Assembly: GCF_024363565.1 (NCBI RefSeq) | Contig: NZ_JAJEKE010000006.1 | Coordinates: 124,001 to 188,000, forward strand | Reading direction: 5' to 3' | Source of the DNA: Lutispora saccharofermentans | Lineage (GTDB): Bacteria > Bacillota > Clostridia > Lutisporales > Lutisporaceae | DNA: 64,000 nt | Part shown: piece after piece, positions 4,063 to 59,171 of the stretch | Position numbering within the stretch: position 1 is the stretch's first letter | Layout of the letters: each line of letters starts with the position of its first letter | Notes under the pieces: model-generated | The model's input: only the letters and a program-made list of their open reading frames with translations | What the model was told of the DNA's origin: nothing | Databases searched by the model: none | Program-made: the position numbers and the translations under genes

Positions 4063-4083
4063 CATAGTTGAAATTTAATACAT

Positions 4084-4170
4084 AGTGCTGGGGGTGCCAT
4101 ACGGCTGAGAGAAGTTCTATACTTTAACCCTTTGAACCTGATGCGGGTAAAACCGACGGAGGAAAGCCAT
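4084..4170 (+). promoter_or_regulatory. TPP riboswitch (THI element)
   Basis: The conserved landmarks occur in order: GGGGTGCC, GGCTGAGA, ACCCTTTGAACCTGATGCGG, GTAAAACCGACGGAGGAAAG. The aptamer binds thiamine pyrophosphate. It is followed 24 bases later by an intrinsic terminator, so it most likely shuts off the downstream transporter operon when TPP is plentiful. Confidence 0.97.
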
Positions 4171-4193
4171 TAAAATATATGGATGGACGCCTT

Positions 4194-4222: not shown

Positions 4223-4340
4223 ATCGCATAGGAAAAAATAAATTTCCTATGCGATGGGGGATGCAAGGGGGAAGCCCCCTGCCGTACAAGGAGGGTGCTC
4301 AGGATGCCGTGCATCCGTCAAAGGGAACCATAGGGTTCCC
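4223..4340 (+). promoter_or_regulatory. chain of hairpins in the leader between terminator and first gene
   Basis: Four further inverted repeats follow in series: ATCGCATAGGAAA/TTTCCTATGCGAT (4223-4255), GCAAGGGGGAAGCCCCCTGC (4262-4281), GGATGC/GCATCC (4302-4316) and AGGGAACC/GGTTCCCT (4320-4339). None has a T-run. They may stabilise the mRNA or form a second control element. The function is unknown. Confidence 0.55.
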
Positions 4341-30739: not shown

Positions 30740-31146
30740 TTGGATTTTACATGCTTATGCGCTGCAGACAGTGATATGCCCATCAAAAATATGGTGGACA
30801 GCTTTGTTTTGAAACAGTTTATCATCTATAATATGCGCAATTTTTTCCACTTTACTGAGGTGGTTCTGGACAGCGGCATGGGCAATATCGTCTGCGGCAC
30901 GAATATGGAAGCGATTCAGAGGGAGATTACCGAATGTCTGAGTGAGCAGGGCATGACCCGACATCACCCCAAGGAACGGGTGAAAGAGACGGAGGGTATC
31001 CGGCAATACTGGTTTGAATGTGAAAATGTACATATTGCCGTTCTTTCCTCCCAGCCGAGAATGGAAGCCACCACTGCGGCTATCGGACTTTCCTCTTGGC
31101 TCTCCGCTGTCGGCGCTTCCGTCTGCTATGTAGAGGAAAATCAAAG
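30740..31146 (+). pseudogene. fragment resembling a ParA/MinD-type ATPase of a mobile element
   Basis: The frame contains TEVVLDSGMGNIVCGTNMEA and, near its end, HIAVLSSQPRMEATTAAIGL followed by SSWLSAVGASVCYVEEN. The second part resembles the beta1-P-loop-helix of ParA-like proteins, but the P-loop lysine is missing (RMEATTAA). The reading frame then runs into the inverted duplication at 31,147 and picks up antisense codons. It is therefore truncated and probably not functional. Confidence 0.5.
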
Positions 31147-31686
31147 AAGTTGCTGCAATGTTTGTTCAGAGGACGTAACGCCGCATCTATTGGATAGATA
31201 CACATCCTGACTGCCGCCTTCAACAAAATCAAGAAAGAAGCTGTGTAAATCCAACAGGAGAACCGATGGATATACTTGTAATTTCTCTAGCAATAGCTTT
31301 TCGAGAGCCTGATGGTAAGGCTGATAATATTGGATTACTCGTCGGTTAATCTCATTCTCATCTAGCGGTGAAGAGTACAAAGAGCTGCCTTGTGTGTTCT
31401 CATGATAGACAACTGTCTTGCGATAATCTCCACTTCTTGCACTCTCAATTGAGCGATTCATATCCACCACATATCGGCTTAGCTGATTGATGATTGTGGT
31501 GCATCCCATTGCGGGAAGAAAGTCGTAAAGTTCCGGCAAGAACCAATCCGAATTTGACAAGCATGCGCTACCAAGGAGGCGTTTGCGAATATCTTGAGGA
31601 ACAAATACTCCGCTGTGGGGTAAATCAATTACCACTGGAAACTGATGTACATTTTCATTCAAGATTTTGTAGTGTTCCATATTCAT
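31141..31686 (-). pseudogene. 3'-truncated N-formylglutamate amidohydrolase family gene (copy A)
   Basis: The first ~180 residues match the intact gene at 58,380 (NMEHY.ILNENVHQFPVVID, PHSGVFVP, LLLDLHSFFLDFVEGG), with about 10% differences. The match stops at TLQQL, where the inverted duplication ends; one further codon and a stop come from foreign sequence. About 80 C-terminal residues are lost, so activity is doubtful. Confidence 0.88.
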
Positions 31687-31697
31687 TCATCCCAATC

Positions 31698-32618
31698 TTA
31701 CTTATACTTTGTGTCGTTTTTGGACCCTATGGATGACCCATCAATTAGTTCCTTCAGGCCATGTTGCTTCCTGAAAATCCCCAACAGCACGGCTACAAAA
31801 TATGCCTTAACCGTATTGCCCAGGACTTCTTCAATCACGCGGGGAATCCATATAGCTGCAAACGGAAGTACCTTCCATGCGGTAAAGATTGTTTCCCGCA
31901 ATACGACTGTGTTTAGGGTAGTTACAATCAGACCAGAACCAATCATAACGATAAGAAGCTGGGGTATTTGCCCTCTGCTTGTGTCATGAAGAAACTTCTT
32001 TGATATAAAAAGATCAGCGGTTAGCAAAAGAATACCGAGAGCAGCGCTGCCGATAAGCCCTGCTGTTACGAAGGTAATGTAGGTCGCCAGATTTCCTGAT
32101 GGGTCTTTCGTGTCAATTGTTCTTGTAATAAGCATTTTGCTGACAAGGTGCATATTGTCTGTATTGATGTTTTCTTTTTGTACATGGTCATAAAAGCCAT
32201 TGTCAATACCATCGGCAGACAGAAATGCAATATTAAAAATGCCTACTAACAATAAAAGAGCGGAACATACTGCAACTGCAATTCTCATTTTCTTACTGTC
32301 TTTATTTCGCAACGCATTCCATAATGCGCCCCTGATAAATCCACCAGCAGCTACTACCAGCGTCATGAGGGGGATATAGGTTCCCACAGGCTTCAATAAA
32401 TAGCCTAAAAAGTCAGAAAGCCCTGATACAATAGCGCCATACACAGGCCCAAATAAAAGGGATGGCATGATGGAGAAAATGCCGGAAATTCCAATGCTCA
32501 TTCCATTTTGTCCAAACATGGGTATGTAAAAGAAAAATGTTGTTTTCAAAGCGAGTGAAATACTGAGGAATACCGCAGATATTGTGATGCGGCGCACATA
32601 TAAAGATGAGCCTTTCAA
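31698..32618 (-). CDS. folT: folate-family ECF transporter S component (copy A)
   Basis: This 306-residue membrane protein is the substrate-binding S component of an energy-coupling-factor importer. It starts at TTG behind AAGGGAGAAG. It has SAVFLSISLALKTTFFFYIP near the N-terminus, GISGIFSIMPSLLFGPVYGA and SGLSDFLGYLLKPVGTYIPL at 50-85, as in FolT-like proteins. It is longer than a typical S component because of a ~70-residue insertion in the middle (~125-200). The THF riboswitch upstream supports folate as ligand. It differs from copy B at about six residues. The ECF A/A'/T module is not in this window. Confidence 0.82.
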   Translation of the reverse strand: MKGSSLYVRRITISAVFLSISLALKTTFFFYIPMFGQNGMSIGISGIFSIMPSLLFGPVYGAIVSGLSDFLGYLLKPVGTYIPLMTLVVAAGGFIRGALWNALRNKDSKKMRIAVAVCSALLLLVGIFNIAFLSADGIDNGFYDHVQKENINTDNMHLVSKMLITRTIDTKDPSGNLATYITFVTAGLIGSAALGILLLTADLFISKKFLHDTSRGQIPQLLIVMIGSGLIVTTLNTVVLRETIFTAWKVLPFAAIWIPRVIEEVLGNTVKAYFVAVLLGIFRKQHGLKELIDGSSIGSKNDTKYK

Positions 32619-32699
32619 TTTAACTTCTCCCTTCTTAATAAGCGTATTCTAGAAAGTTTATCGTTAAATTGATTTGCTAAGTTGCGACCATAAAAAACA

Positions 32700-32734
32700 C
32701 CTCCTGTTATGCAGCACAGCTACATAACAAGAGG
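32700..32734 (-). terminator. terminator after THF riboswitch, copy A
   Basis: Mirror of 57,332-57,366: CCTCTTGTTATG pairs with CATAACAGGAGG and is followed by a T-run on the minus strand. Confidence 0.85.
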
Positions 32735-32761
32735 CATAATGATTACACCGCTTCTCCTTAT

Positions 32762-32881
32762 GTAGCAGCGGGATGCGAATCTTGTACCGTAAGCCTGCAA
32801 AGGCTTTTCGTCCCTCTGACAACTCCCCGTTCAGAAGGCACTGAAAATCAATGATTTACGCACAAAATCCTACTCTGCTCT
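32762..32881 (-). promoter_or_regulatory. THF (tetrahydrofolate) riboswitch, copy A
   Basis: On the minus strand the landmarks GAGTAGG, TGTGCGTAAATC, CAGTGCC, ACGGGGAGTTGTC, GGACGAAA and GATTCGCATCCCGCT occur in order, matching the THF riboswitch class. It is identical in layout to copy B. Confidence 0.88.
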
Positions 32882-32955
32882 TATATTCATAATTCTTTCT
32901 GAATGAAAATCACAACATTCAGAAAGAAATAAAAAAACCCACCAATCCAAGCATC

Positions 32956-33026
32956 ATGCACAGACGGTCGGCTTCATAAAACGCTATACTTCCTGTGGTT
33001 ATTTCCACTTCCGTCAGTCATATAGC
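32956..33026 (-). promoter_or_regulatory. ZTP-type (pfl) riboswitch, copy A
   Basis: On the minus strand, a stem GCTATA/TATAGC encloses TGACTGACGGAA, the hairpin GTGG/CCAC and AGGAAG, followed by GCCGACCGTCTGTGCA. This matches the ZTP riboswitch class, with one deviation (CTGTGC instead of the usual CTGGGC). Confidence 0.72.
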
Positions 33027-33032
33027 ATATTC

Positions 33033-33061
33033 ATATTATCACTACTTGTTAATATTGTCAA
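33033..33061 (-). promoter_or_regulatory. promoter of folate operon, copy A
   Basis: Mirror of 57,005-57,033: TTGACA, 17-base spacer, TAATAT on the minus strand, just inside the duplication boundary. Confidence 0.8.
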
Positions 33062-33152
33062 TTTCAATTCCGAACCAAGTTCAGAGATGTTGATGATATT
33101 TGTTTCATCAGATATAATAAGATGCGTAATTTAACATTTCATAACATAAAGG

Positions 33153-55876: not shown

Positions 55877-56106
55877 ACGCTAATCGTCCTTTTCACATTC
55901 ATTCTTATTTATTATATACGGTTAGCCGAATAATAACAAGTATCATCACGGGCAGAAGCACATTCTATTAACCAAACAGATAAGAAATACCTGGGACATA
56001 CCTATGCTTTTATTTAGTAGAAGTCAAACACGTATTTTTTTTGCAAAAGCGGGGTTTCACAAATTGAGTAGGAGGTAGGTGATTAGTTCACCTACCGACC
56101 TCTCAC
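55877..56106. other. intergenic region ahead of the HTH/VanRS operon
   Basis: AT-rich sequence at 55,900-56,030 probably holds the promoter of the minus-strand operon. No gene is seen. The right part, including GGAGGTAGGTGATTAGTTCA, belongs to group II intron remains. Confidence 0.4.
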
Positions 56107-56140
56107 ACCACCGTACATAGGGTTGCCTATACGGCGGTTC
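56107..56140 (-). mobile_element. group II intron domain V-like hairpin
   Basis: On the minus strand AACCGCCGTATAGG-CAA-CCCTATGTACGGTGGT forms the 34-nt hairpin expected for domain V, with its internal bulge. Downstream GAGAGGTCGGTAGGTG fits the intron 3' region. It lies after the reverse-transcriptase remnant, in correct order. Confidence 0.75.
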
Positions 56141-56237
56141 CTTAGTTTACGCTATGACAGATTTGTAATAAGAACTTAGAAACTGAAAACCATCCTTTTC
56201 TAACCTATGGTTTGAAAGGGCGGTTTGTAGAACCGGG

Positions 56238-56718
56238 CTACCGGCTATCCGCCAGTTTGGCGTATGCCACTACTGTTTTCTCCCGATTCACTTTAAGGAA
56301 CAGTTTCCTTTCTATGTATGGGATGATATGTTCCAGCGTTTGTCTGGCACTTGCCTTGCTCTTGCACAGAATTACCATATCATCTGCGTAGCGGACGAAT
56401 CGGTGCCCTCTCTTTAAAAGCTCGTGGTCTAGTTTGTTCAGCATGATATTCGCACATAACGGACTAAGAGGTCCGGCACTTTCCAAGAGCATCATGGGCG
56501 CTTTTCTACGGTCTGAATCCATAGCTCGTTTCCACGAATTTTGGCTCATATGTGGGTGTCAGTACCTGTGCGATTGCCTGCTGGGTGACACGGTCTACAC
56601 GTCCGTGAGACCTCACCAGGTACTCGCACGTTCTTTCTCTCCATTTATCTGCCTTATTTACTGCAAATGATTCCGTGTAGTTATTGGGCTTTGACTTGCG
56701 TTGCAGCCTTACCCTCAT
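56238..56718 (-). pseudogene. group II intron reverse transcriptase/maturase pseudogene
   Basis: Two pieces are visible on the minus strand in different frames. The first, RVDRVTQQAIAQVLTPTYEP then FVETSYGFRP, is the RT-1/2 region. The second, SAGPLSPLCANIMLNKLDHE with the catalytic YADD in FVRYADDMVILCKSK and LFLKVNREKTVVAY, is RT-4 to RT-7. An internal deletion and frameshift separate them, and the maturase and endonuclease parts are missing. Group II intron origin is clear. Confidence 0.88.
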
Positions 56719-56887
56719 CTACAGCCTGATAAGATTTCTGTTCGTCAGACCGGAGATTTGCCTCCACCTTCCTTGAGATTCCTCGTCACCGGGGACACTC
56801 TTGGTCTTGGCTATATCCTTCCCACTACTACCGGGCGGATTCGGGACTTTCACCCGTTAGAGCGTGCACCCGCCGGGCGCACAACGG

Positions 56888-56948: not shown

Positions 56949-56999
56949 ACTTCGGGCCAATCCCACGCGAGTGTTACTCGTGTGGGATTGGCCCGAAGT
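56949..56999. repeat. 51-bp hairpin abutting the inverted duplication
   Basis: A 24-base arm beginning ACTTCGGGCCAATCC pairs with its inverted copy (one G-U change) around GTT. It ends at 56,999, exactly where the 1.92-kb duplication begins. Confidence 0.85.
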
Positions 57000-57004
57000 T
57001 GAAA

Positions 57005-57033
57005 TTGACAATATTAACAAGTAGTGATAATAT
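57005..57033 (+). promoter_or_regulatory. promoter of the folate-uptake operon
   Basis: Consensus TTGACA (57,005-57,010), 17-base spacer, TAATAT (57,028-57,033). Transcription should start just before the ZTP-type aptamer. Confidence 0.85.
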
Positions 57034-57039
57034 GAATAT

Positions 57040-57110
57040 GCTATATGACTGACGGAAGTGGAAATAACCACAGGAAGTATAGCGTTTTATGAAGCCGACC
57101 GTCTGTGCAT
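57040..57110 (+). promoter_or_regulatory. ZTP-type (pfl) riboswitch
   Basis: The aptamer shows GCTATA/TATAGC enclosing TGACTGACGGAA, GTGGAAATAACCAC and AGGAAG, then the 3' element GCCGACCGTCTGTGCA. Class members read ACUGGCG and CCGUCUGGGC, so two conserved positions vary here. ZTP builds up when 10-formyl-THF is short, and these riboswitches usually switch genes on. Confidence 0.72.
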
Positions 57111-57137
57111 GATGCTTGGATTGGTGGGTTTTTTTAT
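57098..57137 (+). terminator. terminator overlapping the ZTP aptamer 3' element
   Basis: ACCGTCTGTGC can pair, with several G-U pairs, with GCTTGGATTGGT, followed by GGG and seven T. It uses the aptamer's 3' element, as expected for ZTP riboswitches that turn expression on. Confidence 0.65.
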
Positions 57138-57173
57138 TTCTTTCTGAATGTTGTGATTTTCATTCAGAAAGAA
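57138..57173 (+). promoter_or_regulatory. spacer hairpin between the two riboswitches
   Basis: TTCTTTCTGAATG pairs perfectly with CATTCAGAAAGAA around a 10-base loop. It has no T-run after it and separates the ZTP-type and THF elements. Confidence 0.7.
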
Positions 57174-57184
57174 TTATGAATATA

Positions 57185-57304
57185 AGAGCAGAGTAGGATT
57201 TTGTGCGTAAATCATTGATTTTCAGTGCCTTCTGAACGGGGAGTTGTCAGAGGGACGAAAAGCCTTTGCAGGCTTACGGTACAAGATTCGCATCCCGCTG
57301 CTAC
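57185..57304 (+). promoter_or_regulatory. THF (tetrahydrofolate) riboswitch
   Basis: Landmarks GAGTAGG, TGTGCGTAAATC, CAGTGCC, ACGGGGAGTTGTC, GGACGAAAAGCC, GGCTTACGGT and GATTCGCATCCCGCT occur in order, matching the class that controls folT and folate genes in Firmicutes. It should reduce expression when reduced folates are plentiful. Confidence 0.88.
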
Positions 57305-57331
57305 ATAAGGAGAAGCGGTGTAATCATTATG

Positions 57332-57374
57332 CCTCTTGTTATGTAGCTGTGCTGCATAACAGGAGGTGTTTTTT
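57332..57374 (+). terminator. THF riboswitch terminator
   Basis: CCTCTTGTTATG pairs with CATAACAGGAGG and is followed by TGTTTTTT, 28 bases after the aptamer. Confidence 0.88.
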
Positions 57375-57447
57375 ATGGTCGCAACTTAGCAAATCAATTT
57401 AACGATAAACTTTCTAGAATACGCTTATTAAGAAGGGAGAAGTTAAA

Positions 57448-58365
57448 TTGAAAGGCTCATCTTTCTATGTGCGCCGCATCACAATATCTGCGGTATTCCT
57501 CAATATTTCACTCGCTTTGAAAACAACATTTTCCTTTTACATACCCATGTTTGGACAAAATGGAATGAGCATTGGAATTTCCGGCATTTTCTCCATCATG
57601 CCATCCCTTTTATTTGGGCCTGTGTATGGCGCTATTGTGTCCGGGCTTTCTGACTTTTTAGGCTATTTATTGAAGCCTGTGGGAACCTATATTCCCCTCA
57701 TGACGCTGGTAGTAGCTGCTGGTGGATTTATCAGGGGCGCATTATGGAATGCGTTGCGAAATAAAGACAGTAAGAAAATGAGAATTGCAGTTGCAGTATG
57801 TTTCGCTCTTTTATTGTTAGTAGGCATTTGTAATATTGCATTTCTGTCTGCCGATGGTATTGACAATGGCTTTTATGACCATGTACAAAAAGAAAACATC
57901 AATACAGACAATATGCACCTTGTCAGCAAAATGCTTATTACAAGAACAATCGACACAAAAGACCCGTCAGGAAATCTGGCGACCTACATTACCTTCGTAA
58001 CAGCAGGGCTTATCGGCAGCGCTGCTCTCGGTATTCTTTTGCTAACCGCTGATCTTTTTATATCAAAGAAGTTTCTTCATGACACAAGCAGAGGGCAAAT
58101 ACCCCAGCTTCTTATCGTTATGATTGGTTCTGGTCTGATTGTAACTACCCTAAACACAGTCGTATTGCGTGAAACAATCTTCACAGCATGGAAGGTACTT
58201 CCGTTTGCAGTTATATGGATTCCCCGCGTGATTGAAGAAGTCCTGGGCAATACGGTTAAGGCATATTTTGTAGCCGTGCTGTTGGAAATTTTCGGGAAGC
58301 AACATGGCCTGAAGGAACTAATTGATGGGTCATCCATAGGGTCCAAAAACGACACAAAGTCTTAG
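57448..58365 (+). CDS. folT: folate-family ECF transporter S component (copy B)
   Basis: This 305-residue membrane protein is nearly identical to copy A, with a few substitutions and a different last residue. TTG at 57,448 follows AGAAGGGAGAAG. GISGIFSIMPSLLFGPVYGA and SGLSDFLGYLLKPVGTYIPL mark the S-component core; a ~70-residue soluble-looking insertion (NGFYDHVQKENINTDNMHLV) is unusual. Folate as ligand is inferred from the tandem ZTP and THF riboswitches. It needs an ECF A/A'/T module from elsewhere in the genome. Confidence 0.85.
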   Translation: MKGSSFYVRRITISAVFLNISLALKTTFSFYIPMFGQNGMSIGISGIFSIMPSLLFGPVYGAIVSGLSDFLGYLLKPVGTYIPLMTLVVAAGGFIRGALWNALRNKDSKKMRIAVAVCFALLLLVGICNIAFLSADGIDNGFYDHVQKENINTDNMHLVSKMLITRTIDTKDPSGNLATYITFVTAGLIGSAALGILLLTADLFISKKFLHDTSRGQIPQLLIVMIGSGLIVTTLNTVVLRETIFTAWKVLPFAVIWIPRVIEEVLGNTVKAYFVAVLLEIFGKQHGLKELIDGSSIGSKNDTKS

Positions 58366-58379
58366 CAAGATTGGGATGA

Positions 58380-59171
58380 ATGAATATGGAACACTACACA
58401 ATCTTGAATGAAAATGTACATCAGTTTCCGGTGGTGATTGATTTGCCCCACAGCGGAGTATTTGTTCCCTTAGATATTCGCAGTCGTCTCCTTGATAACG
58501 CATGTTTATCAAACACAGATTGGTTCTTGCCGGAACTCTACGACTTTCTTCCTGCAATGGGATGCACCACAATCATCAATCATCTAAGTCGATATGTGGT
58601 GGATGTGAATCGCCCTGTTGGTGGTGCAAGAAGCGGAGATTATCGTAATACGGTTGTCTATCAGGAAAACACGCAAGGTAGTCCTCTGTATTTTCCACCA
58701 CTGAATGAGAAAGAGATTAACCAACGAGTAATCCAATATTATCAGCCTTACCATCAGGCTCTCGAAAAGCTATTGCGAGAGAAATTACAAGTATATCCAT
58801 CGGTTCTCCTGTTGGATTTACACAGCTTCTTTCTTGATTTTGTTGAAGGCGGCAGTCAGGATGTGTATCTATCCAATAGATGCGGCGTTACGTCCTCTGA
58901 ACAAACATTGCAGCAACTTCATAAAGGTTTTACAGCACAAGGCTACAGTGTTATAGATAATGCAATCATGGGAGGACACGTCATTCACCATTACCGCAAT
59001 ATTTTTCAGGAGCGGTTTGAAGGTATACTTATAGAACTTCGATATACAAAATATATTGAGAATCGCTATTTTGGAGAAGAAGAATTAACGGATAGAAACG
59101 AAATGCTTTTCCAGTCAGCAAAGCAGAAGCTAAAGGATGTGTTTATGCGATTGCCTTATTTTCGGAAGTAA
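58380..59171 (+). CDS. N-formylglutamate amidohydrolase family protein, intact copy
   Basis: This 263-residue cytosolic enzyme of the N-formylglutamate amidohydrolase (FGase) family shows FPVVIDLPHSGVFVP (~15-30), VVDVNRPVGG, LLLDLHSFFLDFVEGG (~140) and HVIHHYRNIFQERFEGILIE (~200), with His/Asp/Glu residues suited to metal binding. In histidine breakdown the enzyme releases formate. Beside a folate importer it might act on formyl- or glutamyl-containing folate-related compounds. Start ATG at 58,380 or 58,386; GGGATGAATGAAT is the nearest ribosome-binding site. It continues 252 bases past the duplication. Confidence 0.82.
   Translation: MNMEHYTILNENVHQFPVVIDLPHSGVFVPLDIRSRLLDNACLSNTDWFLPELYDFLPAMGCTTIINHLSRYVVDVNRPVGGARSGDYRNTVVYQENTQGSPLYFPPLNEKEINQRVIQYYQPYHQALEKLLREKLQVYPSVLLLDLHSFFLDFVEGGSQDVYLSNRCGVTSSEQTLQQLHKGFTAQGYSVIDNAIMGGHVIHHYRNIFQERFEGILIELRYTKYIENRYFGEEELTDRNEMLFQSAKQKLKDVFMRLPYFRK

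Follow-up and report, generated by a model that had tools for sequence, protein, structure and literature searches.

A tandem ZTP/THF-I riboswitch leader with a conserved four-codon minigene that may unlock the start of a FolT-like ECF transporter gene

A riboswitch-led transcription unit and its inverted copy

We analyzed a 64,000-nt stretch of contig NZ_JAJEKE010000006.1 from Lutispora saccharofermentans, hereafter the window. On its forward strand, a gene for a 305-aa FolT-like ECF transporter S component (57448–58365; PF12822, 44.8 bits) starts with TTG at 57448–57450. The protein also matched the folate-family model TIGR04518 over residues 7–125 with 53.8 bits; because this score falls under the curated cut-off of 60, we call the product FolT-like only, and in that form the folate-family ECF gene that the initial annotation placed behind the leader is borne out. 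The AlphaFold model of the protein is poor (mean pLDDT 54.8). A 263-aa N-formylglutamate amidohydrolase-family gene (FGase) follows on the same strand (58380–59171; PF05013, 155.5 bits). We asked whether FGase invariably accompanies the transporter and rejected the idea: the gene is present at only 4 of the 29 named loci of the ECF family, once as a partial gene and with some of the loci cut by contig ends, and FGase therefore lies outside the core unit.

The leader ahead of these genes carries a ZTP element first and a THF-I element second, each with its own terminator and both behind a single promoter, which is the anatomy of a gate. The promoter proposed earlier was confirmed by a pattern scan and the sequence as TTGACA-17-TAATAT with TG before it, on the forward strand at 57005–57033; transcription from this promoter-like site would start at the base of the ZTP aptamer. 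Taken together, sites of this kind are no more frequent in the 64-kb window than chance predicts (2 found vs 4.2 expected). The in-line TTGACA is kept in 10 of 11 aligned ZTP-bearing leaders, and the remaining one, L051, has one further down. Rfam covariance models recovered both aptamers of the initial annotation on the forward strand: the ZMP/ZTP riboswitch aptamer (RF01750) at 57035–57115 with 52.6 bits against a cut-off of 39 (E = 1.1e-5 in the 64-kb search), and the THF-I riboswitch aptamer (RF01831) at 57187–57302 with 81.1 bits against a cut-off of 36 (E = 3.9e-17), in which Rfam marks no non-standard pair.

One terminator had been proposed after each aptamer, and both were found, again on the forward strand. 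Terminator 1 (57091–57135; fold, −17.4 kcal/mol) ends in a 7-T tail, and its stem is partly formed by the 3′ portion of the ZTP aptamer; it is absent from the pattern-scan listing of the window, in which terminator 2 appears (57329–57369, 6-T tail). Pattern scan, fold and sequence together place terminator 2 at 57329–57374, with a 19-bp stem whose 3′ arm contains AGGAGG (57361–57366), the Shine–Dalgarno sequence of a minigene. Between the two switches, a spacer hairpin with a perfect 13-bp stem and no T tail behind it folds on the forward strand at 57138–57173 (−15.5 kcal/mol). Inverted repeats like this one are visible by eye in the leaders of several relatives. Bases 57300–57308, which share the last 3 nt of the THF aptamer P1, are complementary over 9 bases to 57339–57347 in the 5′ arm of terminator 2. 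This predicted antiterminator (57300–57347, forward strand), a putative switch, has the shape expected of a THF-dependent terminator.

The minigene, ATG GTC GCA ACT TAG (Met-Val-Ala-Thr-stop), occupies 57375–57389 on the forward strand and was recognized by leader comparison and neutral simulation. Its ATG lies 8 bases past AGGAGG and one base beyond the end of the interval initially annotated. From 5 to 14 bases past its stop lies the 5′ arm of a start-codon hairpin, TCAATTTAAC (57394–57403, forward strand), the exact reverse complement of the 3′ arm GTTAAATTGA (57442–57451, forward strand), which holds the ECF start TTG; both arms are supported by fold, covariation and sequence. An inner stem (57410–57439, forward strand), predicted by the fold, pairs CTTTCT (57410–57415) with the start of AGAAGGGAG (57431–57439), the ECF Shine–Dalgarno sequence.

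The whole unit occurs a second time, inverted, at 31146–33070 on the reverse strand (96.4% over 1926 bp); the copies 31146–33070 and 56995–58920 form an inverted repeat of the transcription unit, 24 kb apart. Rfam and the sequence locate the parts of the second copy on the reverse strand: promoter 33061–33033, ZTP 33031–32951, THF 32879–32764, minigene 32691–32677 and ECF gene 32618–31698, followed by a truncated FGase gene that is cut at the repeat end. The 443-nt leaders of both copies are identical, the ECF genes show 23 differences in 921 positions and the FGase genes 48 in 541, such that the copies are 100% identical in the leader and only about 91% identical by the FGase gene. This gradient, read from the sequence, is compatible either with gene conversion or with a strongly constrained leader. 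Three items were absent from the interval of the initial annotation: the inverted copy (33070–31146), the minigene (57375–57389) and the start-codon hairpin (57394–57451).

Just upstream of the promoter of the forward copy lie group II intron matches (56063–56795, reverse strand) with a reverse-transcriptase fragment (56238–56549), and beside them a long palindrome at about 56950–56998. Elsewhere in the window, a TPP riboswitch (4080–4181) and a Clostridiales-2 RNA (4249–4328) occur on the same strand less than 70 bases apart.

Precedent, distribution and integrity of the tandem gate

The initial annotation took the combination of ZTP and THF switches to be undescribed. This belief was wrong, and we rejected the novelty of the pair on the basis of Sherlock et al. 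2022 (PMC9481103), who list ZTP followed by THF-I among A AND NOT B gates, count 10 cases, predict that this gate acts at high ZTP as long as THF is not yet abundant, and state that such tandems were already noted upon validation of the riboswitch classes. Their tandem consists of the same classes in the same order, an ON switch and then an OFF switch; the 10 cases are that paper's own count, which may or may not include the loci compared here. The main text of that paper contains no mention of a uORF, upstream ORF, translational coupling, leader peptide or ECF. The two-input logic proposed for the present leader, ZTP high AND THF low, agrees with its anatomy and with the published prediction, and stays a prediction.

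A search of other genomes for co-occurring ZTP and THF elements, proposed with the initial annotation, gave a divided answer. Among 61 related genomes, searched with strict filters, only the window's two pairs were adjacent among the 40 THF and 22 ZTP matches listed (one listed ZTP being below the cut-off), and we dropped the idea of frequent adjacency in relatives. Co-occurrence did emerge at the 29 named loci of the ECF family: at gathering score, 21 have THF, 10 have ZTP and 9 have both, with some loci cut by contig ends. The tandem thus follows the transporter family, not the relatives of the window. Caproicibacter fermentans (L037) offers one example of such a tandem leader. Within the same genome, the other ZTP element lies ahead of what reads like a pyruvate formate-lyase-like gene, and the other THF element (L004) ahead of what reads like a FolT-like protein of 173 codons from ATG. 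In L045 (Lacrimispora amygdalina), the region upstream of 3501 retains ZTP only; the THF aptamer, terminator, minigene and 5′ hairpin arm are jointly missing.

Altered affinity of the ZTP element had been suggested from two departures from consensus. The first, ACUGACG, proved to be the clade norm, as it occurs in 9 of the 10 other ZTP-bearing leaders (the exception, L041, has ACUGGCG), and this part of the argument falls away. The second part stands: CUGUGC is private to the window ZTP, all 10 other ZTP-bearing leaders carry CUGGGC, and Rfam marks a non-standard pair in the hairpin that holds CUGUGC. In the Rfam consensus line, the CUGGGC segment missing from the window ZTP lies by the ligand site. 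For the F. ulcerans riboswitch, G63 and G71 were called essential for ZMP binding (PMC11419147), and by our own count against that numbering the G-to-U change in the window affects the next base after G71. Judged from these letters, weakened ZMP/ZTP sensing by the window element is possible. Because the element passes the Rfam cut-off and lacks CUGGGC, we call it ZTP-class by model score only and regard its ligand response as doubtful.

The ZTP element might also be decaying outright, leaving a leader that serves mainly as a THF-only switch. We consider this possible, if somewhat doubtful, and it is compatible with the relay proposed below. It finds support in the private G-to-U change in CUGGGC and in the score of the window ZTP, the lowest among the 11 elements linked to the ECF gene family (52.6 vs 57.2–64.1 bits). 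At gathering score, moreover, 12 of the 29 family loci have THF without ZTP, including L044 (Lutispora thermophila), whose leader matches that of the same-genus genome G001 in the stretch compared. Six of these THF-only loci were scanned (L039, L044, L046, L047, L050 and L059) and yielded no ZTP match at E ≤ 10, which also sits with decay; ZTP remnants in THF-only leaders, plausible by eye, were dropped on that result. Against decay, both copies of the unit carry CUGUGC within an identical leader, and the window ZTP still scores above the family cut-off.

Conservation of the minigene and the start-codon hairpin

The comparison covered 19 leaders, that of the window plus 18 more. Rows left out were L045 (THF deleted), L053 (no ATG behind the Shine–Dalgarno sequence), L054 and L060 (direct start), L055 and L059 (THF distant from the ECF gene), L069 and L070 (33–35% identity), and L057, L058 and L061–L064 (no THF match or a partial gene only). 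The duplicates L066, L068, L072 and L073, which equal the leaders of L044, L050, L046 and L047 in the stretches compared, were omitted as well. Genome searches with the ECF alignment contributed one new leader, L067; no further leader of this kind was found in viral contigs or in the plasmids searched. The minigene lies at the same place in the 19 leaders and consists of exactly ATG, three codons and a stop in 14 of them, termed strict below. Elsewhere it takes other forms: a shifted frame of 8 codons in L040, a TTG start and 5 codons in L051, a GTG start and 3 codons in L052, and 3 codons in L056. In L067, the minigene stop has become a Trp codon, and the frame continues for 32 codons until a stop adjoining the ECF ATG. 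Separately, a THF leader at L059, a locus in a genome bin (2400–2620), ends in TTG GGT GGA GGT TAA right behind GGAGG, one base before another ATG; this is possibly a second, independent minigene.

The last codon of the strict minigenes encodes Thr in 12 of 14 leaders, spelled ACT in 4, ACA in 5, ACC in 2 and ACG in 1; L043 has Met and L047 Asn at this position. Both TAG and TAA are used as stops, and codons 2 and 3 are variable. The synonymous changes seen in the Thr and stop codons suggest that the minigene is constrained as coding sequence. For neutral simulation, as for the covariation of the hairpin arms described below, we used 16-taxon sets that also omit L051, L052 and L056. On a tree from ECF third positions, none of 1500 runs retained the minigene in at least 14 of 16 taxa, whether the rate was left at 1.0 or scaled to 0.5 or 0.25. 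With the all-codon tree, which is slower, 0, 3 and 114 of 1500 runs at these respective rates attained the observed count.

The conserved Thr raises the alternative of a sensing leader peptide, in which the Thr codon would report threonine or termination status and a stall, rather than passage of the ribosome, would set the output. Consistent with this, the 12 Thr codons draw on all four spellings, and Thr was essential in one termination-stalling motif, ending T-stop, cited in PMC7246954. The minigene, however, offers a single Thr codon only, the hydrophobic part of the reported stalling motif is absent, and Met and Asn occupy the Thr position in L043 and L047; we regard the sensing peptide as improbable. 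The same source (PMC7246954) gives C-terminal Thr as depleted 2.25-fold in bacteria and as without effect on protein level in Mycoplasma.

THF loci outside this comparison served as controls. At 26 of 30 of them, a frame of at least 100 codons begins 5–14 bases behind a Shine–Dalgarno sequence, shortly after the aptamer; the genome's own FolT-like THF locus L004 is one of the 26. At three uncounted controls whose aptamer end was not located, L010, L012 and L031, frames of 183, 186 and 263 codons lie there, and L013 has no such frame within 160 bases of the THF aptamer. In L054 and L060, two remote members of the ECF family, the ECF gene likewise starts directly at the terminator Shine–Dalgarno sequence. 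These direct starts at other THF loci indicate that the minigene belongs to this transporter clade and not to THF riboswitches generally. A nearest-start rule also met very short frames near the gene start in controls L008, L009, L015, L018, L021, L022, L026, L032 and L034. A short frame alone is therefore no evidence, and the marks of the minigene are its kept length, the Thr and the hairpin. In L008, ATG AAT GAA TAA stands behind a Shine–Dalgarno sequence after the THF aptamer and shares bases with the long frame's ATG in a different register, either by chance or as a second kind of coupled start.

We then examined pairing around the ECF start. In the window copy, predicted start-codon pairing is 1.00, against a median of 0.55 for 37 gene starts of the window (which should include both copies), and positions −14 to −6 are paired with a mean probability of 0.45. 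Across the 19 leaders, the real 5′ window pairs so well with the start-codon window that at most 7 of 500 shuffled 5′ windows equal it in 15 leaders; the four that fail to exceed the shuffles are L040 (whose window was placed behind the shifted stop), L044, L051 and L052. Only 5 leaders pair better with their own start window than with any other of the 19, because the arms largely resemble one another and are mostly interchangeable. Among 16 arm pairs, picked and put in register by hand and including related rows that share ancestry, 96.3% of cells pair vs 90.4% in shuffles, and sliding by one column reduces this to 50.0%. Both sides have changed in 4 pairs and 8 cells of this set, compared with 1.5 and 1.8 in shuffles. 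Double changes occur in L038, L049 and L050; the arms of L056 differ in sequence and still pair, and L041 keeps its arms despite a stop-to-start distance of 228 nt. Prediction depends on the stretch folded: with 80 bases upstream, start pairing was 0.33 in L041, 0.54 in L049, 0.35 in L051 and 0.65–0.67 in L043, L048 and L056, and with the full stretch it reached 0.98 in L041 and 1.00 in L049. We also considered L045 as a natural test of a start freed along with loss of the minigene. This was not supported, as the L045 start is still predicted to be paired (0.94) without the THF switch, the minigene and the 5′ arm.

These data bear on a simpler account, in which the leader is the published ZTP/THF-I termination gate and nothing more, the minigene being a remnant of a direct start and the ECF gene being translated independently from its own Shine–Dalgarno sequence. 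The tandem is indeed already published (PMC9481103), the ECF gene does have AGAAGGGAG upstream of its TTG, and L054 and L060 do start directly at the terminator site. A remnant should decay, however, and even at a quarter of the third-position rate no simulated run kept at least 14 of 16 minigenes; the start-codon hairpin, too, covaries. We judge this account unlikely.

A proposed relay from the riboswitches to the start codon

Sequence and comparison together establish the two aptamers, the terminator-like stems and the Shine–Dalgarno sequence within the second stem, and they show that the minigene is conserved and that the hairpin covaries. Building on these, we lean towards a leader that joins a predicted ZTP and THF-I gate (ZTP high, THF low) to a minigene whose translation would likely open the ECF start hairpin. 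The proposed sequence of events begins with ZTP binding, which would disrupt terminator 1. THF binding would stabilize P1, free 57339–57347 and allow terminator 2 to form; terminator 2 would then end transcription and at the same time hide the ribosome site of the minigene, so that leaked transcripts would stay silent. When THF is lacking and ZTP has carried transcription past terminator 1, the minigene would be exposed and translated. A ribosome at its stop would cover most of the 5′ arm of the hairpin, making the ECF start usable, and the conserved Thr in the last codon may slow release and hold the hairpin open longer.

A ribosome at a stop codon should cover about 11 bases downstream, as footprints indicate. 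We therefore blocked all bases up to 11 past the minigene stop and recomputed the pairing of the start codon. In the window leader, pairing fell from 1.00 to 0.06. With this mask, start pairing decreased in 13 of the 14 strict leaders, in L043 only from 0.65 to 0.62, and dropped below 0.5 in only 5 of the 14, namely the window, L036, L039, L041 and L044. Other strict leaders stayed paired (L050, 0.96; L047, 0.81), and in L048 the value rose from 0.55 to 0.69. Among the non-strict leaders, L067 (0.00) and L056 (0.22) were open and L040 (0.99) was closed; in L051 (0.27) and L052 (0.28), the start was little paired from the outset. Support from this model for the relay is mixed: either reinitiation or a longer pause would be needed in several species, or the coupling model is incomplete.

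In its fullest form, the proposal is a relay of three layers, in which transcription gates for ZTP and THF precede an ATG-x-x-Thr-stop minigene that THF would mask and whose slow-ending ribosome would unlock the start, together a fail-safe in many Clostridia-type bacteria. We see the case for this complete version as evenly balanced.

Short ORFs that act on a downstream gene have been described in other settings. In Mycobacterium tuberculosis, the ppe2 B12 riboswitch (Kipkorir et al. 2024, PMC11260477) likewise controls a short ORF that the downstream gene requires. There, coupling works mainly by termination-reinitiation at an AUGA overlap and the aptamer binds B12, unlike the ZTP and THF aptamers here; the window ORF, in further contrast, is four codons long and is separated from the gene by 58 nt and by the hairpin that covers the start codon. 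Another very short ORF, mgtQ of Salmonella (Choi et al. 2021, PMC8092293), lies ahead of a transporter gene and, when translated, releases a ribosome site held in a stem-loop, but it encodes 8 amino acids, needs its Asp and Glu codons and is intergenic, and the abstract of that study mentions no riboswitch. Closest to hand, locus L004 in the same genome places the same THF-I class ahead of a FolT-like gene and differs in that the gene stands directly behind the Shine–Dalgarno sequence; neither a minigene nor a ZTP element was found there. The tandem gate is known. What sets the present leader apart from ppe2 and mgtQ is the four-codon size, the Thr-stop, the place behind a tandem gate and the start-codon hairpin, and in the open-access literature we found no description of a minigene and start-hairpin relay behind this tandem.

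According to the introduction of PMC11260477 (2024), the effect of riboswitch-associated uORFs on gene expression had not yet been addressed. The leaders described here form a conserved natural series with variants, including a lost minigene stop, other hairpin letters and missing THF or ZTP elements, and make the uORF question directly testable. They also keep Thr before the stop, a position where bacteria otherwise avoid it (PMC7246954). If the relay is true, a single terminator hairpin would control transcription and, through a four-codon minigene, translation as well, and this second lock would cut the leak of a transcriptional riboswitch.
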